In this document: piece after piece, positions 5,027-35,124 of the stretch
How the letters are laid out: each line of letters opens with the position of its first letter
Position numbering within the stretch: the stretch's first letter is position 1
The notes under the pieces: model-generated
The model's input: the letters and a program-made list of their open reading frames with translations, nothing else
Database searches by the model: none
Told to the model about the DNA's origin: nothing
Position numbers and translations under genes: made by a program
Assembly (NCBI GenBank): GCA_025363385.1
Contig: JANYEA010000032.1
Coordinates: 62,001 to 126,000, forward strand
Source of the DNA: Bacteroidota bacterium
Lineage (GTDB): Bacteria; Bacteroidota; Bacteroidia; Chitinophagales; Chitinophagaceae
Length of the DNA stretch: 64,000 bases
Direction: 5' to 3'

Positions 5027-6520
5027 TTAATGCCTGAAATGGCGTAATCCGGTCATTACCATTGCAAGGTTATTTTGCACGCAATATTCAATACTGTCTT
5101 TGTCTCTTACTGAGCCACCAGGTTGTATAAACGCCTCCATTCCAGATTCGTGTGCAATTTGAACACAGTCGTTAAACGGAAAAAATGCATCACTAGCCAA
5201 TACCGCACCCTTCAAATCAAATTTAAATTGATGCGCTTTTTCAATTGCATGGCGTAATGCATCAATCCGGCTGGTTTGTCCACAACCCTTACCTACTAGT
5301 TGTTTGTTCTTGATCAACGCAATAGCATTGCTCTTTAAATGTTTACAAACGATATTGGCAAAAATGAGATTTTCTTTTTCTTCGTCTGTTGTAGCGCGAC
5401 CACCTACTTCATCCCATTTGCTAAAGTTTCCTTCGTCTGTACCTTGCTCTAAAATACCATTCAATAAAGATTTGGAAGGTGCTTTTATCGCAGCGCCATC
5501 TGCTTTCAATTCTAATAAAATGCGATTCTTTTTAGTTTTTAAAACGGCTAATGCATCTTCATTAAATGCAGGAGCGATCAATACTTCAAAGAAAATTTCA
5601 TTGATGGCATCAGCAGTTACTTTGTCGATGTTACCATTACAAACCAATACACCACCGAAAGCACTTTCAGGATCTCCGGCTAAAGCAGCATCCCAGCTTT
5701 CTTTTATTGATGGTCGTTCTGCAATACCACATACATTGGTATGCTTGATGATGCCAAATACTTTATGAGAAGATGCGCTGAATTCTTTGATTAACTGCAC
5801 TGCAGCGTCTACATCCACAAGATTATTATAAGAAAGTTCTTTACCATTTAATTGGGTAAAGAGTTGTGTAAGATCGCCATGAAATACGGCAGACTGGTGA
5901 GGGTTTTCGCCATAACGTAAAGCCTGACTAATTCCTGGATTAAAATAATTGCTAATGGCAATGTCGTATTGCATCACTACTTCAAAAGCTTTAGCAGCAT
6001 AAGCCCTACGTTGCTCAATACTTGTTTCACCTTTCTGGTTTTTTAATAATTTTTCCAATGAAGCGTAATCATCTTTAGCTGCAATCACCACTAAATCTTT
6101 GAAGTTCTTTGCAGCAGCACGTATCATGGAAGGTCCACCAATATCTATTTTTTCAATGATCAGTTTTTCTTCAGAAGTAGTGCGAAGGGTTTCTTCAAAA
6201 GGATATAGATCAACAATTACCAGATCAATTTCCGGGATCTTGTATTCTTTCATTTCAACCAGATCCTGTGGTTCGTATCTTCTTCCAAGAATGCCACCGA
6301 AAATGGCTGGATGCAATGTTTTAACACGTCCACCCAAGATCGACGGGTAAGTGGTTAAGCTTTCAACGGCTACACATGTAATGCCAAGGTCTTCTAGGAA
6401 TTTCTGAGTACCACCTGTTGAATAGATGGTAATTCCTAATTCCTGTAATTGTTTGGCAATAGGTTCTAGTCCGTCTTTATAAAAAACGGAGATAAGTGCA
6501 GATTGAATTTTTTTTTGCAT
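5027..6520 (-). CDS. purH: Bifunctional AICAR formyltransferase/IMP cyclohydrolase PurH
   Basis: MQKKIQSALISVFYKDGLEPIAKQLQELGITIYSTGGTQKFLEDLG...; start chosen at the Met of MQKKIQ, not the ORF-track start at 6658. Confidence 0.95.
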   Translation of the reverse strand: MQKKIQSALISVFYKDGLEPIAKQLQELGITIYSTGGTQKFLEDLGITCVAVESLTTYPSILGGRVKTLHPAIFGGILGRRYEPQDLVEMKEYKIPEIDLVIVDLYPFEETLRTTSEEKLIIEKIDIGGPSMIRAAAKNFKDLVVIAAKDDYASLEKLLKNQKGETSIEQRRAYAAKAFEVVMQYDIAISNYFNPGISQALRYGENPHQSAVFHGDLTQLFTQLNGKELSYNNLVDVDAAVQLIKEFSASSHKVFGIIKHTNVCGIAERPSIKESWDAALAGDPESAFGGVLVCNGNIDKVTADAINEIFFEVLIAPAFNEDALAVLKTKKNRILLELKADGAAIKAPSKSLLNGILEQGTDEGNFSKWDEVGGRATTDEEKENLIFANIVCKHLKSNAIALIKNKQLVGKGCGQTSRIDALRHAIEKAHQFKFDLKGAVLASDAFFPFNDCVQIAHESGMEAFIQPGGSVRDKDSIEYCVQNNLAMVMTGLRHFRH

Positions 6521-6596
6521 GATAAATTTTCTTAACCTGTTATGGTCGATGATAATTTCCCTTAGGGCTTCATTTGAAGCCGCAAATATATAAAAA

Positions 6597-8207
6597 TTAA
6601 AAAAAAGCATGGGATCTAATAAACACCCAGACGAAAATAATACCAAAAACTGCCACAAAGCCCTTTGTATTCTTTTGTAATAACCATATTAATAATGAGG
6701 CAATTAGAAGGTATAATAATATGGTTTCTGGAATATCGATAGATATATTTTTAGTGAGTGCAAATGGAATTCGATTGGTTCTTTCAATGATCCCATTCAT
6801 TTGAGCTATTAAGTAACCAGTTATTGTACCAACCCATTTTAAAAGCAGGGGTATAGGGCTAACCAGTAGCAACAGTAATTCGGCATATAAAATAATACCA
6901 GATAACGGAACCACTAAAAAATTAGTAAATAGAAAAAGATTGGGGAACTGATGAAATTGATACAGTACAATGGGAAGGGTTAAAATTTGTGCAGAGATAG
7001 TGATGCTATTTATCTGCCAAACCAATTGAAGTATTTTATTTTTAAAATGGAACCATTGCTCAATATATCTACTAAATAAAACAATGCCCAATACAGCAGT
7101 ATAGGATAATTGAAAACCAATATCCCATAATAAGAATGGATTGTATAGCAACAAAAAAAATGCAGAAGCGGCAATCGTATTCAGGGTATAGTTTTTATAA
7201 CCTAGGCTTTTACTGAATAATAAAAAAGAAAAACCAACTGCCGATCTTAGAATGGCAGCAGCACCTCCTGTGATAAAACTAAAACCCCACAATACTAAAA
7301 GAATCAAGAAAGTACGAATATGGTTATTCCATTTTTTTTGACCAATCGGTTGCAGCAATTGTATGAGCAGGCCGTAAATCATTGCAAGGTGTAACCCACT
7401 GATCGCAATGATATGAACCACACCTGTATTGCTATAAGATTGAACCATTGATCTATCCAGGTCTTCTTTGTAGCCAATAAGCAAAGCTTCAGCTACAGAC
7501 TGTTCTGCCTGTTTTGGAATAGCCTCTTTTAAAATTTGTAAAATAGTATTTCTTGTTTTGTACAAATAAAATTTGAGTGAAGAGGTCGCTTTTTTGTATT
7601 GGATAAATCCTGCATCAGGCAGATACACTTGAAAAAAGATCTGTTGAAAAGAGCAGTACCTGATATAGTTAAATTTATCATTATTAAAATGGTTACTGAT
7701 TTGTTGAATCTGTTCCTGAAACTTAATTTCATCGCCAGTATTCAATTGTAAAGCTGTGCTATCGTTTTTAATATAGAGGAGTATATTCGATTTTGCTTCC
7801 ATCCATTTACCCAGATGTTTAACAGAAACCACTGTGGCCAGGGCCTTCCAGGTTTTTCTTTTTTTTATGAGTGGTTCTTGAATAATGGCAATGATCGTAT
7901 CATTTTTATTATAATGATAGCCGAGCCAGTCTGCTTTTTTTCTAAGATCTTGTTGGTTATAAATTCCTATCCCAAAAACGAATAGTAATAATTGAATGGA
8001 AATACCTGCCATTGGCATCCATGCAAATTTTTGATCAGTTGAAAAAAAATAAAACACCAATAAAAAAAGCAATGAACAAGTGGCTATTTTTTGTAACAGA
8101 TCAATGGGTAGATTGTATTGGTAGGCAACTAAAAGCCCTGTTGAAAAGGGAATCAACAAACGAAGAAATGGAATGCTTTGCCAACTATTTTTTTGCTGCA
8201 ATGGCAT
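6597..8207 (-). CDS. comEC: ComEC/Rec2 family competence membrane protein
   Basis: VVHIIAISGLHLAMIYGLL and TGGAAAILRSAVGFSF competence-domain motifs. Confidence 0.85.
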   Translation of the reverse strand: MPLQQKNSWQSIPFLRLLIPFSTGLLVAYQYNLPIDLLQKIATCSLLFLLVFYFFSTDQKFAWMPMAGISIQLLLFVFGIGIYNQQDLRKKADWLGYHYNKNDTIIAIIQEPLIKKRKTWKALATVVSVKHLGKWMEAKSNILLYIKNDSTALQLNTGDEIKFQEQIQQISNHFNNDKFNYIRYCSFQQIFFQVYLPDAGFIQYKKATSSLKFYLYKTRNTILQILKEAIPKQAEQSVAEALLIGYKEDLDRSMVQSYSNTGVVHIIAISGLHLAMIYGLLIQLLQPIGQKKWNNHIRTFLILLVLWGFSFITGGAAAILRSAVGFSFLLFSKSLGYKNYTLNTIAASAFFLLLYNPFLLWDIGFQLSYTAVLGIVLFSRYIEQWFHFKNKILQLVWQINSITISAQILTLPIVLYQFHQFPNLFLFTNFLVVPLSGIILYAELLLLLVSPIPLLLKWVGTITGYLIAQMNGIIERTNRIPFALTKNISIDIPETILLYLLIASLLIWLLQKNTKGFVAVFGIIFVWVFIRSHAFF

Positions 8208-19990: not shown

Positions 19991-21046
19991 ATGAAAAAAA
20001 ATATTCTAATAACAGGCGGAGCTGGCTTTATCGGATCACATGTGGTAAGATTATTCGTTACCAAATATCCCGAGTATCAGATTTTTAATTTAGACGCCCT
20101 CACCTATGCTGGGAACCTAGAAAATTTGAAGGATATCGATCATCTTCCCAATTACCATTTTTTGAAAGTAAATATTCTTGATGCAGCAGCTTTGGATGCA
20201 GTTTTTGAAGAATATGATATCACGGATGTGGTGCATTTGGCGGCTGAATCGCATGTAGATCGGTCTATTGTTTCGCCTTTAGATTTTGTATACACGAATG
20301 TAATTGGCACAGTGAATCTTTTAAATACGGCCCGCAACAAGTGGAAATCAAATTATTCAGATCATTTATTCTATCATATTTCTACTGATGAAGTCTATGG
20401 TAGTTTAGGTGCTGAAGGTTTCTTTTTAGAAACTACTGCTTACGATCCAAACTCTCCTTATTCTGCCAGTAAAGCTGCATCAGATCATTTTGTGAGAGCT
20501 TATAGAGAAACTTACCATATGCGAACGGTTGTTTCGAATTGTTCTAATAATTATGGTCCCTTTCATTTTCCAGAAAAATTAATTCCATTATTCATCAACA
20601 ATATCATTGAAGAAAAACCTTTGCCGGTTTATGGAGATGGTTTGTATACCAGGGATTGGTTGTTTGTGAAAGATCATGCTATTGCAATTGATACTATTTT
20701 TCATAAGGGCTTAGATGGGGAAACCTATAATATTGGCGGCTTTAATGAGTGGAGAAATATCGACCTGGTAAAGTTGCTATGTGCTCAAATGGATGAAAAA
20801 CTGGGAAGAGAAAAAGGCTATAGTGAAAAGTTGATCACTTATGTGAAAGACAGACCAGGACACGATCGCCGCTACGCCATTGATGCTTCAAAAATCAATC
20901 GTGAATTAGGATGGAAACCCTCTGTAACATTTGAACAAGGCTTGAGTGAGACCATCGATTGGTACCTTACAAATACAGAATGGTTGCAGAATGTAACAAG
21001 TGGTTCATATCAGAATTATTATACAGGAATGTACGAAAACAGATAA
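19991..21046 (+). CDS. rfbB: dTDP-glucose 4,6-dehydratase
   Basis: ILITGGAGFIGSHVVR, STDEVYGSLG, YSASKAASDHFVRAY. Confidence 0.95.
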   Translation: MKKNILITGGAGFIGSHVVRLFVTKYPEYQIFNLDALTYAGNLENLKDIDHLPNYHFLKVNILDAAALDAVFEEYDITDVVHLAAESHVDRSIVSPLDFVYTNVIGTVNLLNTARNKWKSNYSDHLFYHISTDEVYGSLGAEGFFLETTAYDPNSPYSASKAASDHFVRAYRETYHMRTVVSNCSNNYGPFHFPEKLIPLFINNIIEEKPLPVYGDGLYTRDWLFVKDHAIAIDTIFHKGLDGETYNIGGFNEWRNIDLVKLLCAQMDEKLGREKGYSEKLITYVKDRPGHDRRYAIDASKINRELGWKPSVTFEQGLSETIDWYLTNTEWLQNVTSGSYQNYYTGMYENR

Positions 21047-21052
21047 ATTTTT

Positions 21053-21610
21053 ATGACAATAGAGCAAACTAAATTAGCCGATTGCATTATTATTCATGAC
21101 ACTGTTTTTGGAGATAGCAGGGGATATTTTTTTGAGAGTTTTAATCAGAAAAAATTCTTGGAGAAAACTGGAATGGATATCAATTTTATACAGGATAACC
21201 AGTCGAGATCAAGCAAAGGAGTTTTGCGTGGATTGCACTTTCAACATGGTGAACATGCCCAAGCAAAATTGGTACGTGTGTTAGAAGGAAAAGTATTGGA
21301 TATTGCGGTTGACCTAAGAAGAAATTCGCCCACATTTAAACAACATATTGCGGTAGAAATTTCCGCGGAAAGTCGAACGCAATTTTTTGTGCCCCGTGGT
21401 TTTGCCCATGGATTTGTGGTGTTAAGTGAAACAGCTACTTTCTTTTACAAGTGCGATAATTTATATCATAAAGCTTCTGAGGGCGGTGTTATATATAACG
21501 ATCCGGAACTGAATATCGATTGGCAACTGCCTGCAGATCAGTTACTGATTTCTGAAAAAGATCATGTACTGCCCAAAATGAGTGAAATGATCGATAGTTT
21601 GCGTTTTTAA
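21053..21610 (+). CDS. rfbC: dTDP-4-dehydrorhamnose 3,5-epimerase
   Basis: DSRGYFFESFN, QDNQSRSSKGVLRGLHFQ, VPRGFAHGFVVLSE. Confidence 0.95.
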   Translation: MTIEQTKLADCIIIHDTVFGDSRGYFFESFNQKKFLEKTGMDINFIQDNQSRSSKGVLRGLHFQHGEHAQAKLVRVLEGKVLDIAVDLRRNSPTFKQHIAVEISAESRTQFFVPRGFAHGFVVLSETATFFYKCDNLYHKASEGGVIYNDPELNIDWQLPADQLLISEKDHVLPKMSEMIDSLRF

Positions 21611-21650
21611 TAATTGACAAGCATTTACTTTATAACCTAATTCATACAAG

Positions 21651-22508
21651 ATGAAAGGAATTATTTTAGCAGGTGGTTCAGGAACAAGATTATATCCTAT
21701 TACACGTGGGATCAGTAAGCAGTTAATGCCAGTTTATGATAAGCCGATGATTTTTTATCCCTTATCTATCTTAATGTTAGCCGGCATTAATGAAATCCTG
21801 ATCATCACTACTCCAGAAGATTCTTCACAGTTTCAACGTTTGTTGGGCGATGGAAAAGACTTGGGATGCAAGTTTGAGTATGCGGTACAAGCAGTGCCAA
21901 ATGGATTAGCTCAGGCTTTTGTAATTGGCGAGAAATTTATAGGTAATGATAAAGTGGCGTTGATACTAGGTGACAATATTTTTTATGGAGCTGGCTTTGG
22001 AAAGTTAGTGGAATCTTTCAATGATGTAAAAGGGGCAGCTGTTTTTGCCTATGAAGTGAACGACCCTGAAAGATATGGTGTAGTTGAATTTGATGCGAAT
22101 AATATAGCCGTTTCTATTGAAGAGAAACCCAAAGAACCGAAATCAAATTTTGCAGTTCCCGGATTATACTTTTATGATAATACGGTGGTGGAGATTGCTA
22201 AAAATATTCAACCATCCCCTCGTGGAGAATACGAGATCACAGATGTAAATAGGGTGTACCTCGAATCTGGTAAATTACAAGTAGGTGTCATGAGTAGGGG
22301 TACGGCCTGGTTAGATACGGGTACTTTCGATTCATTCGCCGATGCATGCGAGTTTGTAAGAGTTATTGAAAAAAGACAAAGTCAGAAAATAGGCTGTATT
22401 GAAGAAATTGCTTTTCGTAAGGGATATATCAATCGTGAACAGCTTTTGGTAATTGCTGATAAATACGCTAAAAGTGGTTATGGTGAGTACTTGCGTCGAT
22501 TAAAATAG
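21651..22508 (+). CDS. rfbA: Glucose-1-phosphate thymidylyltransferase
   Basis: [39 protein letters not shown]. Confidence 0.95.
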
Positions 22509-22546: not shown

Positions 22547-22557
22547 TTAAACAAAAA
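22547..22557 (+). promoter_or_regulatory. TTAAACAAAA motif copy upstream of CarH-like gene
   Basis: Direct sequence; shared with sites upstream of the sigma gene and crtB. Confidence 0.35.
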
Positions 22558-22581
22558 GGTATCTTGACTGTAATAAAGAAT

Positions 22582-23466
22582 ATGAACGCTTTTACAATCA
22601 AAGATCTTGAAAACCTCTCTGGAATTAAAGCCCATACGATTCGTATTTGGGAGCAGCGATATTCCTTTTTAAATCCAAGCAGAACGGATACCAATATACG
22701 TATTTATAGCAATGAAGAATTGAAAACGATTCTGAATATTGCACTCTTAAATAAGTATGGATTTAAGATCTCGCACATCGATCAGATGAATCAAGAGGAG
22801 TTAAAATCCAAGATTCTCTCTCTCTCTAATTTTGAAGCACAGCAAGAGCGTATTGTAAATGAGATGATCAATTGTATGATTGATATCGATTTTGAGCAAT
22901 TTGAATTAATATTAGACAACCATATCAGTAAAAGAGGAATTGAAAAATCAATTACACATATTGTATTTCCATTTTTAGAAAGAGTGGGTATTTTATGGGT
23001 AACTAATCATATCAATCCGGCACAGGAACACGTGATTACGAATATTATCAGGCAAAAAATTATTCTTGGAATAGAAAGGGTAAGCAGCATTCTTACCTCT
23101 TCAAAAATCTGTGTCTTATTTTTACCAGAAGGGGAGCACCATGAAATGGGACTTTTGTTTATACACTATTTGCTTAAATCAAAAGGCATCAAAGTAATTT
23201 ATCTAGGTGCCAATGTGCCCATAAAAGATATCGAATATGTGTGTAAATTAAAATCACCAGACTTCATTTATACGCACCTTACCTCCCTTGCAAATAACTT
23301 TAATTTTGAGAAGTTCCTCAATTTTATTGTACAAAAAATTCCGAATCAAACCACGGTTATTTCCGGACAGATTACTTGCACATATAAGAAGAAAGCCCCA
23401 GAAAATGTACAATTCAAAACATCCCTTTCAAATGTGATGGAGTTTATCAATGAATTGAGCAAATAG
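22582..23466 (+). CDS. MerR-family regulator with B12-binding domain (CarH/LitR-type photoreceptor)
   Basis: MerR HTH FTIKDLENLSGIKAHTIRIWEQRY; Wx9EH motif W-VTNHINPAQ-EH; ExHxxG motif EHHEMG; ATG at 22582 preferred to TTG at 22564. Confidence 0.88.
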   Translation: MNAFTIKDLENLSGIKAHTIRIWEQRYSFLNPSRTDTNIRIYSNEELKTILNIALLNKYGFKISHIDQMNQEELKSKILSLSNFEAQQERIVNEMINCMIDIDFEQFELILDNHISKRGIEKSITHIVFPFLERVGILWVTNHINPAQEHVITNIIRQKIILGIERVSSILTSSKICVLFLPEGEHHEMGLLFIHYLLKSKGIKVIYLGANVPIKDIEYVCKLKSPDFIYTHLTSLANNFNFEKFLNFIVQKIPNQTTVISGQITCTYKKKAPENVQFKTSLSNVMEFINELSK

Positions 23467-23555
23467 TATCGAATTGCAACTTATTAAAAGAGTCGAAAAT
23501 CCTTAATTAGACCTAACTGCTTGATTTACTTTGTTTTACTATTTAGCAATAAAAA

Positions 23556-23620
23556 TTAAACAAAATTCTTGATTTTGATATTATTTTGTTTATCTTTGCG
23601 AAGTAAATAGTTAAACAAAA
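23556..23620. promoter_or_regulatory. Promoter/operator region of the ECF-crt operon
   Basis: TTAAACAAAA at 23556-23565 and 23611-23620, inverse TTTTGTTTA at 23584-23592, -7 box TATCTTTG at 23591-23598. Confidence 0.5.
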
Positions 23621-23624
23621 AATT

Positions 23625-24125
23625 ATGTCAACAGTCGATTTCGATCAAATTTTAATCAAAAATACAGAGTTTCTAAGGCCCTTTGCTTTTACCTTAACCA
23701 GGGATCAGGAATCTGCAAAAGACCTGGTACAGGAAACCTTATTTAGGGCATTGGCAAATAAGGAGAAGTACCATATTGGTACCAATATTAAAGCATGGAT
23801 GTACACAATCATGCGTAATATTTTTATCAATAACTACCGCAGAAAATCTAAGCAGCAAACTATTTTCGATCATACTGCAAACGATTTTTTAATAGATACC
23901 AATCAGGTTGCGATTGCCAACGAAGCAATTGCCACATTAAATATGAAAGAAGTTCAAGAAGCTATTCATAAACTTCCTGAAATTTTCCGAAACCCATTTT
24001 TGCTGTATTTCGATGGTTATAAATACCATGAAATTGCAGATATGCTTAAAGAGCCTCTGGGAACCATCAAGAGTAGGATTCACTTTGCACGTAAATTATT
24101 GAAAACGCAGATTGAACGCCACTAA
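23625..24125 (+). CDS. ECF-type RNA polymerase sigma factor of the carotenoid locus
   Basis: DQESAKDLVQETLFRALANKEKY and LPEIFRNPFLLYFDGYKYHEIADMLKEPLGTIKSRIHFAR. Confidence 0.9.
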   Translation: MSTVDFDQILIKNTEFLRPFAFTLTRDQESAKDLVQETLFRALANKEKYHIGTNIKAWMYTIMRNIFINNYRRKSKQQTIFDHTANDFLIDTNQVAIANEAIATLNMKEVQEAIHKLPEIFRNPFLLYFDGYKYHEIADMLKEPLGTIKSRIHFARKLLKTQIERH

Positions 24126-24163: not shown

Positions 24164-25669
24164 GTGACTAAGAAAGCTATTGTTATAGGCAGTGGATTTG
24201 CAGGCCTTTCGGCTGCATCTTTTTTGGCAAAAGCTGGATGGGATGTTACTGTATTAGAAAAACATGATCAACCTGGCGGAAGGGCTCGGCAATTCAAAGC
24301 AGAAGGATTTACTTTCGATATGGGTCCTAGTTGGTACTGGATGCCAGACGTCTTTGAAAGATACTTTAAACAATTTGGAAGATCAGTTTCAGATTATTAT
24401 CAACTAATTAGATTAGATCCTTCTTATAGAATTGTGTGGAATGATGGTCCAATGGATATTCCAGCAGATTATAATGCTTTCAGAAATTTGTTTGATAATA
24501 TTGAACCGGGGAGTGGCGATAAATTAGATAAATATATTGGTGAGGCTGCTTATAAATACCAGGTAGGGATCAATAAATTAGTTTTCAAGCCAGGTCAATC
24601 ACTCACAGAATTTTTAGACAAAGAATTAGTGAGTGGCTTATTTCGCCTGGATGTTTTTAATTCTATCAAAACCCATGTGGCAAAGCATTTCAGCAATCCC
24701 AAGTTGAAAGAGTTGATGGAATTTCCGGTTTTGTTTTTGGGCGCTTTGCCAGAAGATACACCAGCTTTGTATAGTTTAATGAACTATGCAGATATTAAAG
24801 GGGGTACCTGGTATCCTAAAAAAGGAATGTATCAGATTGTGGAAGCCATGTATTTATTAGCTGTTGAACTTGGCGTGAAATTTAAATTTGAGCAAGAAGT
24901 TACCAATGTAACCATTCAAAATAAATTGATCAGTACTGTAATTGCAAATACAACTGAGAATGGAATAAAAATTCCCAAAATGTATAAAGCAGATGTGGTG
25001 GTAGCAGGTGCAGATTATCATCATGTGGAAACACAAATATTACCAAAAGAATTTCGATCCTATTCAGATGCATACTGGGAGAAAAGAGTAATGGCTCCTG
25101 GATGCCTTATCTATTATATTGGTTTAAATAAAAAAATCGATGGGATTTTACACCATACTTTGTTTTTTGATACTTCATTTGCTGTGCATGGGGATGAAAT
25201 TTATAAAACAAAAAAATGGCCTACAGACCCCTTGTTTTATGTGAGTGCAATTTCGGTAACCGACCTTGATTCAGCACCAGCGGGGGGTGAAAATTTATTT
25301 TTATTGATCCCTGTTGCGGCAGGATTAAAAAATGATGATGAAGCTTTAAGAGATCATTACTTCGATTTGATCATAAAAAGAATGGAAAAGCACTATGGGC
25401 AAACGATCAGAGAGAATATTGTATACAAAAAATCCTTTTCAAACAGCGATTTTATCAATGATTATCACTCTTTTAAAGGAAATGCTTACGGCTTAGCCAA
25501 TACTTTGCTTCAAACGGCAATTTTAAAGCCTGCCTGTAAAAGTAAGAAAATTAAGAACCTTTTTTATACCGGTCAGCTCACAGTTCCCGGTCCGGGCGTA
25601 CCGCCTAGTTTGATCAGTGGAGAAGTGGTGGCAGGGGAAGTGATTAAGGATTTTGGAAATACCTTATAG
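24164..25669 (+). CDS. crtI: Phytoene desaturase (GTG start)
   Basis: KKAIVIGSGFAGLSAASFLAKAGWDVTVLEKHDQPGGRAR; C-terminal TGQLTVPGPGVPPSLISGEV. Confidence 0.93.
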   Translation: MTKKAIVIGSGFAGLSAASFLAKAGWDVTVLEKHDQPGGRARQFKAEGFTFDMGPSWYWMPDVFERYFKQFGRSVSDYYQLIRLDPSYRIVWNDGPMDIPADYNAFRNLFDNIEPGSGDKLDKYIGEAAYKYQVGINKLVFKPGQSLTEFLDKELVSGLFRLDVFNSIKTHVAKHFSNPKLKELMEFPVLFLGALPEDTPALYSLMNYADIKGGTWYPKKGMYQIVEAMYLLAVELGVKFKFEQEVTNVTIQNKLISTVIANTTENGIKIPKMYKADVVVAGADYHHVETQILPKEFRSYSDAYWEKRVMAPGCLIYYIGLNKKIDGILHHTLFFDTSFAVHGDEIYKTKKWPTDPLFYVSAISVTDLDSAPAGGENLFLLIPVAAGLKNDDEALRDHYFDLIIKRMEKHYGQTIRENIVYKKSFSNSDFINDYHSFKGNAYGLANTLLQTAILKPACKSKKIKNLFYTGQLTVPGPGVPPSLISGEVVAGEVIKDFGNTL

Positions 25670-25672
25670 ATT

Positions 25673-25682
25673 TTAAACAAAA
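25673..25682 (+). promoter_or_regulatory. TTAAACAAAA motif copy upstream of crtB
   Basis: Direct sequence in crtI-crtB gap. Confidence 0.3.
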
Positions 25683-25733
25683 TCTGCCAATTTCTGTTTC
25701 CTATATATAGACTAATACATAAAAACACACATT

Positions 25734-26570
25734 ATGATGAACCTGTTTCATGAAGTGAGCCAGGATTGCAGTAGAATAACTACCGAAAAATATAGCACTA
25801 GCTTTTTTTCGGCTATCAAACTATTGCATAAAGATTTCAGAGCACCCATTTGCAATATCTATGGATTTGTAAGGTTCGCCGATGAAATAGTGGATAGCTT
25901 TCACGAGCATCCCAAAGCAGATTTATTGGCTGATTTTAAAAAAGCAACCTACGAAGCCATCGACAAAAAAATAAGTTTAAACCCCATCCTCAATAGTTTT
26001 CAAATTACGGTTAATCAATACCAGATCGACCATCATTTAATTGAGGCTTTTTTGTATAGTATGGAGTTGGATTTGGAAAAACGTGAATACGATAAATTAG
26101 GCTACGAAGAGTATATATACGGTAGCGCAGAAGTAGTAGGTTTAATGTGTTTGCATGTATTTTGTGCAGGACATAAAAATGAATACGAAGATTTAAAGCC
26201 ATATGCCAGAAGCCTAGGTGCAGCATTTCAGAAAGTAAATTTTTTACGCGACCTAAGAGCAGATTATGAAGGCCTGGATAGAATCTATTTCCCCGGTTGT
26301 AATTTTAATAATTTTAGTGAAAAAGATAAACTTGCTATAGAACGCGATATTCAAAAAGATTTTGATCATGCATTTGAAGGCATTCAAAAATTACCCATTA
26401 AAGCAAGATTTGGGGTATACGTAGCATTCAAATATTATTTATCGCTTTTCAAAAAAATCAAAAAAATTCAGCCACAGAAAATTATGCAACAAAGGATAAG
26501 AATTCCTGACTATGGCAAATTTTTTATATTGGCAAAAGCGGGTATCCGAAGTCAAATGAACATGTTGTAG
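25734..26570 (+). CDS. crtB: Phytoene synthase
   Basis: YGFVRFADEIVDSFH and VNFLRDLRADYEGLDRIYFP. Confidence 0.93.
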   Translation: MMNLFHEVSQDCSRITTEKYSTSFFSAIKLLHKDFRAPICNIYGFVRFADEIVDSFHEHPKADLLADFKKATYEAIDKKISLNPILNSFQITVNQYQIDHHLIEAFLYSMELDLEKREYDKLGYEEYIYGSAEVVGLMCLHVFCAGHKNEYEDLKPYARSLGAAFQKVNFLRDLRADYEGLDRIYFPGCNFNNFSEKDKLAIERDIQKDFDHAFEGIQKLPIKARFGVYVAFKYYLSLFKKIKKIQPQKIMQQRIRIPDYGKFFILAKAGIRSQMNML

Positions 26571-26597: not shown

Positions 26598-27131
26598 ATG
26601 GAACAGGTAGTATTGGTTAATGAACGTGATGAAGAGTTGGGATTGATGGAAAAAATGGAAGCACATGAAAAAGCTTTATTACATAGGGCATTCAGCGTTT
26701 TTGTTTTTAATCAATCTGGAGAACTATTGTTGCAACAAAGAGCAATTGACAAATACCATAGTGGTGGGTTATGGACAAACACATGTTGTAGTCACCCTCG
26801 CCCTAATGAATCAGTATCTGACGCTGCAAGCAGAAGGTTAAGAGAAGAAATGGGTTTTGAAGTTCCACTAGAAAAAGTTTTTGATTTTATTTATCAGGCA
26901 ATTTTCGATAATGGTCTTGCAGAACATGAATTTGACCATGTGTTTGTAGGATACTATGATGGTCCAATACAAGTGAATCCTGCGGAGGTGAATGATTACG
27001 TGTATCGCAGTATGGATAATATTCAACAATCACTTGAATTACACGACGGATTATTCACAGCATGGTTCGAAATCATCTTTCCCAAAATGATGCATTGGTG
27101 GCAGCTGAATGGTCATCAAAAAATAGCTTAA
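26598..27131 (+). CDS. idi: Isopentenyl-diphosphate delta-isomerase type 1
   Basis: Nudix fold, LHRAFSVFVFNQSGELLLQQRA, WTNTCCSHPRPNE. Confidence 0.93.
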   Translation: MEQVVLVNERDEELGLMEKMEAHEKALLHRAFSVFVFNQSGELLLQQRAIDKYHSGGLWTNTCCSHPRPNESVSDAASRRLREEMGFEVPLEKVFDFIYQAIFDNGLAEHEFDHVFVGYYDGPIQVNPAEVNDYVYRSMDNIQQSLELHDGLFTAWFEIIFPKMMHWWQLNGHQKIA

Positions 27132-27149: not shown

Positions 27150-28640
27150 ATGAGCCATTCTAAGAAAGCAATTGTTATTGGTGCTGGTATTGCAGGTATT
27201 GCTTCTGCAATCAGATTGTCTATAGAAGGGTTCGAAGTGTCTGTATATGAAAAAAACGATTATCCAGGAGGAAAAATCAGCGAATTTAATTTAGGTGAAT
27301 ATCAATTCGATGCGGGTCCTAGTTTATTTACACAACCCGAGAATATTGAAGAATTATTTGCGCTTGCAGGTGAGCCCATTGAAAAATATTTTCAATACCA
27401 ATCACTCCCAATTTCTTTTAAATATTTTTATGATGATGGAACTGTTATCAACGCTTACACTGATAACCAGGCTTTTGCAGAGGAACTGGAAAATAAAACA
27501 GGAGAAAAACAGGCAGCACTTTTAAGTTACTTAGAGAGCTCTAAAAAAGTGTATCAAAATATAGCTGGCTTATTTTTAAATAATTCCCTGCACCAAATAA
27601 AAACATTGTTTTCTCCTGGTGTGGGAAAGGCTTTTGCCACTCTGAGGTGGAAATATCTTTTTAAATCGATGAACGATTTAAATGCAGCTCATTTTACCAA
27701 AGCACATACCATTCAATTATTCAATCGCTTTGCCACCTATAATGGAAGTAACCCTTATCAGGCACCTGGCATGTTAAGCCTGATTCCTCATTTAGAATTA
27801 AATCAAGGTACCTTTTATCCGAAGGGAGGGATGATTAGTATTAGTAATGCGCTATATCAGTTAGCACTTAAGAAAGGGGTACGATTTCATTTCTCTACAC
27901 CTGTTGACAGAATCATTCAACATGAAAATTCTGCGCAGGGGGTAGTAATAAATAGGAAGAATCGGTTCGCAGATATTGTTGTAAGTAATATGGATGTATA
28001 TTTTACTTACCAAAGATTGCTGTTAGACCCTTTTAAAGCAACAGAAGTTTTAAAACAAGAAAGAAGCAGCAGTGCACTGATCTTTTATTGGGGAATCAAT
28101 CATCCCTTTCCAACACTAGAATTGCATAATATATTTTTTACTAAAAATTATCAAGCTGAGTTTGAATCGCTTTTTACAACCAAAAAAGCATACGCCGATC
28201 CCACGGTCTACGTAAATATCACCAGTAAAATGGAACCTGGTTTACAAGCCCCGGGGGGAAAAGAAAATTGGTTTGTAATGGTAAATGTGCCTGCAAATAT
28301 GGGTCAGGATTGGCTGGAACTCAGAGCAAAATACAGAGTTGCCATTATTGAGAAATTAAATAAAATATTAGGGACAGACATAGAACCCATGATAGAAGTT
28401 GAGGAAGTGTTAGATCCTGTTATCATAGAAAATAGAACCCATTCTTATATGGGATCTTTATATGGAACAAGTTCTAATTCTAAGATGGCTGCTTTTTTAA
28501 GGCATCCGAACTTTTCTAAAAAAATAAAAAATTTATATTTCGTTGGGGGGAGTGTACATCCCGGCGGTGGCATACCTTTGTGTTTAAAGAGTGCCGCTAT
28601 TATGAGTAGGATGGTGGCCAAGGATTTTAAAGAAAAGTAA
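27150..28640 (+). CDS. crtD: CrtD-like carotenoid 3,4-desaturase (CrtI family paralog)
   Basis: KKAIVIGAGIAGIASAIRLSIEGFEVSVYEKNDYPGGKISE; C-terminal FVGGSVHPGGGIPLCLKSA; second desaturase in cluster. Confidence 0.75.
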   Translation: MSHSKKAIVIGAGIAGIASAIRLSIEGFEVSVYEKNDYPGGKISEFNLGEYQFDAGPSLFTQPENIEELFALAGEPIEKYFQYQSLPISFKYFYDDGTVINAYTDNQAFAEELENKTGEKQAALLSYLESSKKVYQNIAGLFLNNSLHQIKTLFSPGVGKAFATLRWKYLFKSMNDLNAAHFTKAHTIQLFNRFATYNGSNPYQAPGMLSLIPHLELNQGTFYPKGGMISISNALYQLALKKGVRFHFSTPVDRIIQHENSAQGVVINRKNRFADIVVSNMDVYFTYQRLLLDPFKATEVLKQERSSSALIFYWGINHPFPTLELHNIFFTKNYQAEFESLFTTKKAYADPTVYVNITSKMEPGLQAPGGKENWFVMVNVPANMGQDWLELRAKYRVAIIEKLNKILGTDIEPMIEVEEVLDPVIIENRTHSYMGSLYGTSSNSKMAAFLRHPNFSKKIKNLYFVGGSVHPGGGIPLCLKSAAIMSRMVAKDFKEK

Positions 28641-28652
28641 AATAGGAATCAG

Positions 28653-29348
28653 CTGATTGGAAATTTTAAAATATCGAAACATAATATCGCTACTTTTCTT
28701 GCGATACTTTTTCATTTTAGTGGACTCATTGGTATCCTATTCAGTGATCAGAAAGAGTGGTTTATTCAAAATACAAGTTTGAATCTGGTATTAATGGCAA
28801 TATTGCTATTGTGGAATCAACCAGAAAAGAATGGAGCTTTTTTTAGTTTCTTACTTATTAGCTTTTTAATAGGGATGAGTGTAGAAATGATAGGTGTAAA
28901 TACCGGACGTTTATTTGGAAGCTATCATTATGGGGTTAAAATGGGCGCCAAATTCAATGCAGTTCCCTGGTTGATCGGCTTGAACTGGTTTGTATTGATG
29001 TTTTGTTGTGGAATTGTAATGACTAAATTGCATCAATGGATCAAAGATCAATATGAAGCTTCGGGGTTTACGATGACGCCCGTGGTTGAAAAAATTTCAT
29101 TGGTATTTGACGGTGCTTCTATTGCATTATTTTTCGATTGGATAATGGAACCAGTGGCAGTTAAAATGGGCTTTTGGGAATGGAAAGATGGGATCATACC
29201 ATTATATAATTATGTTTGTTGGTTTTTGATTAGCATGTTTTTACTCTGGGTATTTAGTAAGCTAAGGCTTAATAAAGACAATCATTTTGCAGTAGATTTA
29301 TTAATCATACAATTTTTATTTTTTTTAACACTAAGAATTTATTTATGA
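28653..29348 (+). CDS. cruF: Carotenoid 1,2-hydratase CruF-like membrane protein (5' end uncertain; ORF track begins at internal TTG 28779)
   Basis: SFLIGMSVEMIGVNTGRLFGSYHYGVKMGAKFNAVPWLIGLNW; upstream in-frame LIGNFKISKHNIATFLAILFHFSGLIGILFSDQKEWFIQNTSLNLVL looks like the native N-terminus. Confidence 0.75.
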   Translation: MIGNFKISKHNIATFLAILFHFSGLIGILFSDQKEWFIQNTSLNLVLMAILLLWNQPEKNGAFFSFLLISFLIGMSVEMIGVNTGRLFGSYHYGVKMGAKFNAVPWLIGLNWFVLMFCCGIVMTKLHQWIKDQYEASGFTMTPVVEKISLVFDGASIALFFDWIMEPVAVKMGFWEWKDGIIPLYNYVCWFLISMFLLWVFSKLRLNKDNHFAVDLLIIQFLFFLTLRIYL

Positions 29349-29821
29349 TGAACTATGTACTTATTACCCTGGTCACATTTTGCATCATGGAGGGTATTAC
29401 ATGGCTTACACATCGTTTTGTGATGCATGGATTTTTATGGTATTTACACGAAGACCATCATAAAAAGGGCGCCGGATTTTTTGAAAAAAATGATGCTTTT
29501 TTTGTGATTTTTGCCATCCCTAGTTGGCTCTGTATTATGTTAGGAAGTATGAATCAAGTATATTGGGTAGTGTCCATTGGAGCGGGTATAGCATTATATG
29601 GCTTTGCTTATTTTCTAGTGCATGAGATTATTATACATCAACGGTTCAAGTTTTTTACAAGGTCAAACAGCCGTTATATCAAAGCCATTCGCTGGGCACA
29701 TAAAATGCACCATAAACATATCGACAAAGAAGAAGGAGAAAGCTTCGGTATGTTATTGGTAGCTAAAAAATATTGGGATAAAATTCGCAAAGACGAAGCC
29801 ATCCAAAATAATCCACAATAA
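29345..29821 (+). CDS. crtZ: Beta-carotene hydroxylase
   Basis: Histidine motifs HRFVMHG, HEDHHKK, HEIIIHQR, HKMHHKH; 4-nt overlap with cruF. Confidence 0.88.
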   Translation: MMNYVLITLVTFCIMEGITWLTHRFVMHGFLWYLHEDHHKKGAGFFEKNDAFFVIFAIPSWLCIMLGSMNQVYWVVSIGAGIALYGFAYFLVHEIIIHQRFKFFTRSNSRYIKAIRWAHKMHHKHIDKEEGESFGMLLVAKKYWDKIRKDEAIQNNPQ

Positions 29822-29836
29822 ACTCTGCAAACCTAA

Positions 29837-30994
29837 ATGGCACCCAAACAATACAACTATATCATTGCCGGTGCCGGTTGCGCAGGATTAAGTTTGTTGA
29901 TGCGCATGATGGAAGATTCTTTTTTTTTCGAGAAAAAAATATTGGTCGTTGATCGTGAAATGAAAAACACAAACGATCGCACCTGGTGTTTTTGGGAGAA
30001 AGGTCAAGGGCTTTTTGAGAAGATCGTGCATCATCAGTGGCAGCAGGTTAATTTCTTCAGCAAAGATTATAATAAGAAGTTAGATCTAAGTTCCTATCAA
30101 TATAAAATGATTCAGGGAATTGATTTATATAATACCGTTATTCAAAAGGCATCTGACTTTCCCAATATTGAATTTCGTGTAGATGAAATATTATCCATTC
30201 GTTCTACAGAAACTAGCGCCGAATTGCAGTTCAATAATGAATTGGTTGTAGGGGAATATTTATTCAATAGTATTCTTTTTGAGAAAGACAAACTTGTACC
30301 CACTAAAAATCTATATCAGTTATTGCAACATTTTAAGGGATGGGTAATTGAAACCAGCGAACCTTTTTTTGATCCTGCGGTAGCTACTTTGATGGATTTT
30401 AGAATTAGTCAGGAACATGGCACTAGTTTTTTTTATGTAATGCCCACTTCTGCCACAACCGCATTAGTAGAGTATACATTATTCTCTGAAATGCTTTTGC
30501 ATAAGGATGCTTACGACGTTTCATTAAAAGCATATATCAGTGAATTCCTTAAGATTAAAGAATATAACATACAGCACGAAGAATTTGGGATCATTCCCAT
30601 GACCAATCAACGTTTTTCTTTGCAGGATGGGCGGATAATTCAAATGGGAGTGGCCGGTGGGCAGGTGAAAGGCAGCAGTGGCTATGCCTTTCAGTTTATT
30701 CAAAAACGAACTGCTGCAATTGTTGCGGGATTAAAAAATGGTAAAACCAAGTTCGATCGTATTGGAATACATCAAAAAAAAGGAAATTTGTATGATGCCG
30801 TTTTATTACATGTATTGCATCATCATAAAATACCTGGAGATCAAATATTTCAATCCATTTTTTCAAAAATCAATACAGAGAAAGTGTTGCGTTTTTTAGA
30901 TAATGAATCAAGTATTTTGGAAGACTTGCAAATAATGAATTCTGTACCCACATCTATTTTTTTACCTGCTGCGTTAATTGAACTCAGTCATTAA
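29837..30994 (+). CDS. crtY: Lycopene cyclase, CrtY type
   Basis: YNYIIAGAGCAGLSLLMRMM, NDRTWCFW, GMAGGQVKGSSGYAF-like GVAGGQVKGSSGYAFQFIQ. Confidence 0.9.
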   Translation: MAPKQYNYIIAGAGCAGLSLLMRMMEDSFFFEKKILVVDREMKNTNDRTWCFWEKGQGLFEKIVHHQWQQVNFFSKDYNKKLDLSSYQYKMIQGIDLYNTVIQKASDFPNIEFRVDEILSIRSTETSAELQFNNELVVGEYLFNSILFEKDKLVPTKNLYQLLQHFKGWVIETSEPFFDPAVATLMDFRISQEHGTSFFYVMPTSATTALVEYTLFSEMLLHKDAYDVSLKAYISEFLKIKEYNIQHEEFGIIPMTNQRFSLQDGRIIQMGVAGGQVKGSSGYAFQFIQKRTAAIVAGLKNGKTKFDRIGIHQKKGNLYDAVLLHVLHHHKIPGDQIFQSIFSKINTEKVLRFLDNESSILEDLQIMNSVPTSIFLPAALIELSH

Positions 30995-34367: not shown

Positions 34368-34524
34368 AAAGTACCCTCCATTGAGTATAATTCAACACTT
34401 GAAAACCTTTGAATTAGTTATCAAAATATTTTATATAAAATATTTCAATTTTCAACCTGCTTTTTATGGGTGTCATTTTACCAATTTCGAACATTCAAGA
34501 TTCAGTTTAAAAACCTTAATTTTC

Positions 34525-35124
34525 ATGAAGCCATTGAAAATGCAAATAGTATTCGCTTATCAACAAATACCAAATTCTGTTCGGCATTTTTTATTTATGG
34601 CATTCTCCCTGGCAATTAGCTGGAAATTATTTTACCTTTTATTTTTTATGAATACCCGAATACTTGATGAACCTTTAACCAATCATGTTGGTATTTCCAC
34701 AGCTTATGTTTTGAATCATTTTAGTGGCATGCATCAGTTTGATGCAATCAAAAAAATAGATACCTCCATCATGGAAGGTCAAATTCAAATGGCACAGGTC
34801 AGCAGTATTTTGCATCATCATCAGAAAGTCTTGCATATTGCAGATGGCTGTAATGGTCTTGAATTAATGGTTTTATATAGTGGATTTATTATTTGCTATC
34901 CATCCACTAAAAAACGCAAAATAGGGTACATTTTACTTGGTCTTTTAATGATAGACTTTTTCAATATTGCAAGGTGTTCCTTATTGGGATTTATTAAAGA
35001 GTATTATCACCCCTATTTTTATATCTCCCACCATTTTGTTTTTAAAGTAGTGGTGTATGCAGTTATCGTAATTCTCTGGGTTTGTTTCACCCGTAAAACT
35101 GAGTTTCATGAAAATCCACTATAA
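34525..35124 (+). CDS. Exosortase/archaeosortase family protein
   Basis: Putative Cys/Arg/His triad context: IADGCNGLELMVLYSGFII, DFFNIARCSLLGF, SHHFVFKVVVYAVIVILWV. Confidence 0.75.
   Translation: MKPLKMQIVFAYQQIPNSVRHFLFMAFSLAISWKLFYLLFFMNTRILDEPLTNHVGISTAYVLNHFSGMHQFDAIKKIDTSIMEGQIQMAQVSSILHHHQKVLHIADGCNGLELMVLYSGFIICYPSTKKRKIGYILLGLLMIDFFNIARCSLLGFIKEYYHPYFYISHHFVFKVVVYAVIVILWVCFTRKTEFHENPL

Follow-up and report, generated by a model that had tools for sequence, protein, structure and literature searches.

We suggest that the carotenoid gene cluster of a freshwater Chitinophagaceae-like bacterium (genome of 3.65 Mb) is governed by a CarH/LitR-type repressor that depends on B12 and is released by light, in a form specific to the Bacteroidota, which would act on an operon made up of an ECF sigma factor gene and the crt genes and to which a tier of sigma-dependent promoters would be added; we put the probability of this reading at about 0.7. 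The stretch of DNA analysed, referred to here as the window, is 64,000 nucleotides long (G000:C37:62001-126000), and the features under discussion are collected in Table 1. The photochemistry of CarH is known in detail from Thermus. Our literature searches found neither a CarH mechanism for the Bacteroidota nor a description of a CarH operator in this phylum. Light-induced carotenoids have been reported for Chryseobacterium lacus (PMC7064467).

A preliminary description of this DNA had placed a MerR-type protein with Wx9EH and ExHxxG motifs at 22582, followed by an ECF sigma factor with no obvious anti-sigma gene beside it and then by crtI, crtB, idi, crtD, cruF, crtZ and crtY, and in all of this it proved correct. 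The crtZ assignment comes from histidine motifs, and no Pfam or NCBIfam model matched that gene. The carH reading frame is taken here from the ATG at 22582, the mechanical ORF call beginning at a TTG at 22564. The genes carH, ecf and crtI are direct neighbours, so that no anti-sigma gene adjoins ecf, and the gap between ecf and crtI is only 38 bp; this tight spacing is repeated in most relatives. The synteny of carH, ecf and crtI is conserved among the related loci, and ecf adjoins carH in nearly all relatives in which the contig extends that far. Directly upstream of carH the window carries dTDP-sugar genes (rfbB-, rfbC- and rfbA-like, 19991-22508), and an rfbA-like gene is found in this place in many relatives as well. 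In two relatives (L019 and L021, positions 6177-7689) the region before carH contains an SDR gene and a gene for a deoxyribodipyrimidine photolyase-related protein. Further along the window, at 34381-35124, is a gene for a membrane protein resembling a member of the exosortase/archaeosortase family.

Table 1. Genes and predicted regulatory sites of the carH-ecf-crt region, in window coordinates.
Feature	Position	Strand	Basis
Predicted ECF-type promoter of carH, AAC (22550-22552)-N16-TGTAAT (22569-22574)	22548-22574	+	
carH, CarH/LitR-type MerR regulator with B12-binding domain, 294 aa	22582-23466	+	Pfam, PDB sequence and fold, motifs
O1, upstream predicted CarH operator, TTGTTTT-N19-TAAACAA, one mismatch	23531-23563 (G000:C37:85531-85563)	+	
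Predicted sigmaA-type promoter of the ecf-crt operon, TTG (23569-23571)-N19-TATCTTTG (23591-23598)	23569-23598	+	Sequence, conservation profile
O2, downstream predicted CarH operator, TTGTTTA-N19-TAAACAA, perfect	23586-23618	+	
ecf, ECF sigma factor, 166 aa	23625-24125	+	Pfam Sigma70_r2/r4_2
crtI, phytoene desaturase family	24164-25669	+	NF058655 above cut-off
Predicted ECF-type promoter upstream of crtB, TAAACA half-site, AAC (25676-25678)-N16-TGTTTC	25674-25700	+	
crtB, phytoene synthase family	25734-26570	+	SQS_PSY 2.5e-42
idi, isopentenyl-diphosphate isomerase (type 1)	26598-27131	+	NF002995, TIGR02150 above cut-off
crtD, 1-hydroxycarotenoid 3,4-desaturase	27150-28640	+	NF042421 above cut-off
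cruF-like carotenoid hydratase, start codon uncertain	28695-29348	+	Caroten_synth 8e-24
crtZ-type beta-carotene hydroxylase	29345-29821	+	Histidine motifs in translation
crtY, lycopene cyclase	29837-30994	+	Lycopene_cycl 2.1e-49

Judged by sequence, the closest known relatives of the carH product are the CarH/LitR photoreceptors. Its best sequence matches in the PDB are to Thermus CarH (1.4e-19), and TtCarH chains are also the top structure matches of its predicted fold (AlphaFold model, pLDDT 92.7). In Pfam it matches MerR_1 (1.3e-13) and B12-binding_2 (8e-6, above the cut-off), with B12-binding (4.8e-7) scoring 30.1 bits where the cut-off is 32.1, and the NCBIfam CarH equivalog NF052513 scores 102.3 bits, below its cut-off of 400. 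The architecture is that of class I CarH/LitR, with an N-terminal MerR helix-turn-helix and a C-terminal four-helix bundle and Rossmann B12-binding domain. The Wx9EH motif is W139-x9-E149-H150 and the ExHxxG motif is E185-H-H187-E-M-G190; among 81 orthologues (the window protein together with those from the search for related loci) W139, E149, H150, E185 and H187 do not vary and G190 is present in 80 of 81, and the same five residues are invariant in a class-wide Bacteroidia alignment of 56 sequences. SignatureFinder defines GxxW, EH, GxxH and GxxxP as the light signature (PMC11796333), and this is complete in the window protein (G136/W139, E149/H150, G184/H187, G209/P213), with G209 and P213 likewise invariant in the 56-sequence alignment. 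A paralogue elsewhere in the genome (L002, G000:C19:26553-27416), which has 38% identity to CarH, carries ExHxxP, does not have GxxxP and adjoins a sigma54-type response regulator, and is possibly not light-sensing.

The upper ligand of cobalamin in the light state of TtCarH is His132. At this position the window protein has Val140, and no histidine occurs there in the 81 family orthologues (mostly Leu, Ile, Val, Met or Gln) or in 22 homologues from other Bacteroidia families (mostly Gln); H143 is conserved in the family of the window protein. With His132 missing, photolysis could not end in the bis-His state of TtCarH, and the final light state would have to differ. Most H132A TtCarH stays tetrameric in the light (PMC10442372), an earlier report having differed. 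Light-responsive CBDs with Arg, Gln or Tyr at this position are known (PMC11796333), so that a ligand of the His132 type varies among light-responsive domains and does not define class I CarH/LitR. It is plausible that the window protein undergoes photolysis despite V140.

Evidence for an operator lies in the gap between carH and ecf. An inverted repeat of the form TGTTTA-N18/19-TAAAC occurs in 73 of the 75 carH-ecf gaps compared, a degree of conservation that partly reflects shared descent, and a looser version of the pattern is expected only 0.16 times in a 64-kb window. The repeat is doubled in many loci, as it is here in O1 and O2, and the two copies are then about 56 bp apart. In aligned gap profiles, which read TGTTTA[A/G]CTTT[G/A], the left arm of the repeat overlaps the Bacteroidota -7 box, for which the consensus is TAnnTTTG (PMC9723704); in the window, the left arm of O2 shares bases with the -7 box of the predicted ecf-crt promoter, TATCTTTG (23591-23598). 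The CarH operators described in the literature consist of 11-bp direct repeats in tandem and have a TnnACA core (PMC9304148; PMC8156234), and the half-site TAAACA fits this core, yet it is arranged in inverted repeats. Among 29 further loci, from the same family and from distant Bacteroidia, the repeat is present in 15 of the 17 with an adjacent ecf and in 1 of the 12 without (Fisher p 2e-5, with no correction for phylogeny). At L092, where ecf-crtI and carH diverge, two copies of the repeat sit before ecf. Several distant loci have a separate -7-like box downstream of the repeat, an arrangement that favours an operator over a promoter element. A reading of TTAAACA as a mere -35 element for an ECF sigma factor was rejected for the right arm at ecf, as the start codon follows directly after it. 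We infer that the protein binding these repeats is CarH.

A second kind of site points to an added role for the sigma factor. The form AAC-N16-(T/C)GT(T/A), which is that of an ECF promoter, is common to the regions upstream of carH in 78 loci, and with a position weight matrix from which the window and its closest relatives were left out the carH promoter is the top site of the 64-kb window; its -35 element is overlapped by a CarH-like half-site, TAAACA (22548-22553). The motif also stands before crtB in six genomes, this one and its five closest relatives (L004-L008), and with the matrix rebuilt without this group the crtB site ranks fourth in the window, which makes it moderate evidence. 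The region before crtI gave no such motif, and most relatives beyond these six genomes lack one at crtB. Outside the window, the matrix trained on carH sites gives 17-20 bits on the promoter of a queD/PTPS-folE operon in this genome and in four related ones (L147, L148, L149 and L156), and at this promoter (G000:C163:16914-16944, L085) a CarH-like inverted repeat overlaps the -35 element in five genomes. The sigma factor that reads the AAC-N16-TGT motif is probably that of the window.

Genome-wide, neither the operator nor the ECF motif was found in excess over reversed controls in this genome, and six matches to the ECF motif that were inspected looked mostly intragenic or isolated. These counts point to a small regulon and to a motif that on its own is not specific, and our claims are restricted to conserved sites for this reason. 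Inspection of individual genes of the host gave no convincing operator or ECF motif at its photolyase gene (C163:19038-20351), which lies about 3 kb from the queD/PTPS-folE operon, or at its DPRP gene (C114), and neither motif was seen in the sequence upstream of its single FAS1 gene (L159). At four loci in three other genomes (L144, L145, L152 and L155) the inverted repeat stands directly at the start of genes for secreted FAS1 (fasciclin) domain proteins. In three close relatives (L139, L140 and L141) it lies between a gene for a Crp/Fnr-type regulator and a radical-SAM gene. In Thermus, LitR also works through a Crp/Fnr regulator.

From these observations the following mechanism can be proposed, in which AdoCbl and light as the inputs, and the sign of the regulation, are presumed. 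In the dark, AdoCbl-loaded CarH would sit on one or two of the inverted repeats between carH and ecf, covering the sigmaA -7 box and the start region and thereby silencing the operon from ecf through crtI, crtB, idi, crtD, cruF and crtZ to crtY. On illumination the Co-C bond would be cleaved and the repressor would leave the DNA, and sigma A could then transcribe the operon. The ECF sigma factor, with no adjacent anti-sigma, would be controlled by its own synthesis; it may boost crtB, transcribe the queD/PTPS-folE operon and also transcribe carH, which would reset the switch. A supply of AdoCbl is plausible, because the host genome encodes an ATP:cobalamin adenosyltransferase and has a cobalamin riboswitch ahead of a gene for a BtuB-like receptor.

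The alternative with the greatest weight, possible though doubtful in our view, is that CarH represses the operon, including ecf, and that the sigma factor acts on unrelated genes, so that no carotenoid cascade exists. As crtI follows ecf so closely, a single promoter can serve all of the genes, and direct control of the crt operon by CarH is indeed probable, a strict two-tier cascade being unneeded; the absence of an ECF-type motif from crtI, and from crtB in most other relatives, is in keeping with this. However the ECF-type promoters at crtB in six genomes and at carH nearly everywhere argue for an added sigma tier, and the adjacency of ecf to carH and the crt genes has been kept over long distances. 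The two-tier cascade predicted in the preliminary description, from LitR to LitS to crt, is in its strict form only partly supported.

It is also conceivable, if improbable, that the protein has kept the CarH fold but responds to some other signal, as a B12-independent or non-photosensory repressor. Myxococcus CarA provides a precedent, since it works without B12 while repressing the same promoter as CarH (PMC8156234), and the loss of His132 from all 81 family orthologues and the 22 homologues of other families could be understood in the same way. Against this, the AdoCbl-contacting residues W139, E149 and H187 and the rest of the signature motifs show little or no variation across the class, and CBDs in which Arg, Gln or Tyr replaces His132 are known to respond to light (PMC11796333). 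We regard it as similarly unlikely that a regulator other than CarH binds the inverted repeat, or that the repeat belongs to a sigma promoter. One of its arms does share bases with the -7 box, as the half-site does with the AAC of the ECF-type promoters. The right arm, however, lies directly before the ATG and cannot be a -35 element, the repeat is kept in distant loci at other positions relative to the -7 box, and a half-site that fits the CarH core recurs at the carH promoter.

Light-released repression by CarH, as preferred here, can be set beside several known systems. The window protein shares with Thermus thermophilus CarH and other class I LitR proteins the MerR domain, the four-helix bundle and Rossmann B12 domain, the Wx9EH and ExHxxG motifs, the GxxW/EH/GxxH/GxxxP signature and adjoining crt genes. 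It differs from Thermus CarH in having Val instead of His132, in a predicted operator built as an inverted repeat around a spacer of 18/19 bp rather than as tandem 11-bp direct repeats, and in the ECF sigma gene placed between regulator and crt genes. The layout resembles LitR-LitS of Streptomyces, where a B12-type MerR regulator is likewise paired with an ECF sigma factor and crt genes. This parallel, drawn already in the preliminary description, holds for the adjacency of regulator and sigma gene and for a predicted operator at the sigma promoter. In contrast to Streptomyces, a single operon with a sigmaA-type promoter in front is predicted here for the sigma and crt genes, and the predicted targets of the sigma factor include carH and the folE operon. 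In Myxococcus xanthus a CarH-type repressor blocks the sigmaA promoter of a carotenoid operon, as is predicted here; two inverted repeats were once proposed for CarA, and the current view of the CarH operator there is one of 11-bp direct repeats. The Myxococcus ECF sigma factor CarQ is held by the anti-sigma CarR, whereas none adjoins ecf here. In Pseudomonas, folE is among the light-induced genes under the class II LitR homologues PplR and PmlR (PMC9758184), as it may be here, although these proteins have no Rossmann B12 domain and act together with short LOV proteins.

A CarH homologue is present in 197 of 296 Bacteroidia genomes, and the carH-ecf layout, as gene order indicates, recurs widely in this class. 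We tentatively extend our reading, at somewhat less than even odds, to the Bacteroidota as a whole: these bacteria may possess a distinct branch of B12 photorepressors that switch without His132, act on paired inverted repeats and are wired to an ECF sigma factor that has no anti-sigma beside it and drives the genes for carotenoids, pterins (queD/PTPS-folE) and the photoreceptor. If this is true, it would provide a defined operator for Bacteroidota CarH and a natural set of CarH proteins lacking His132 in which to study how such proteins release DNA, and it would describe a small light regulon in which carotenoids and pterin synthesis come together.
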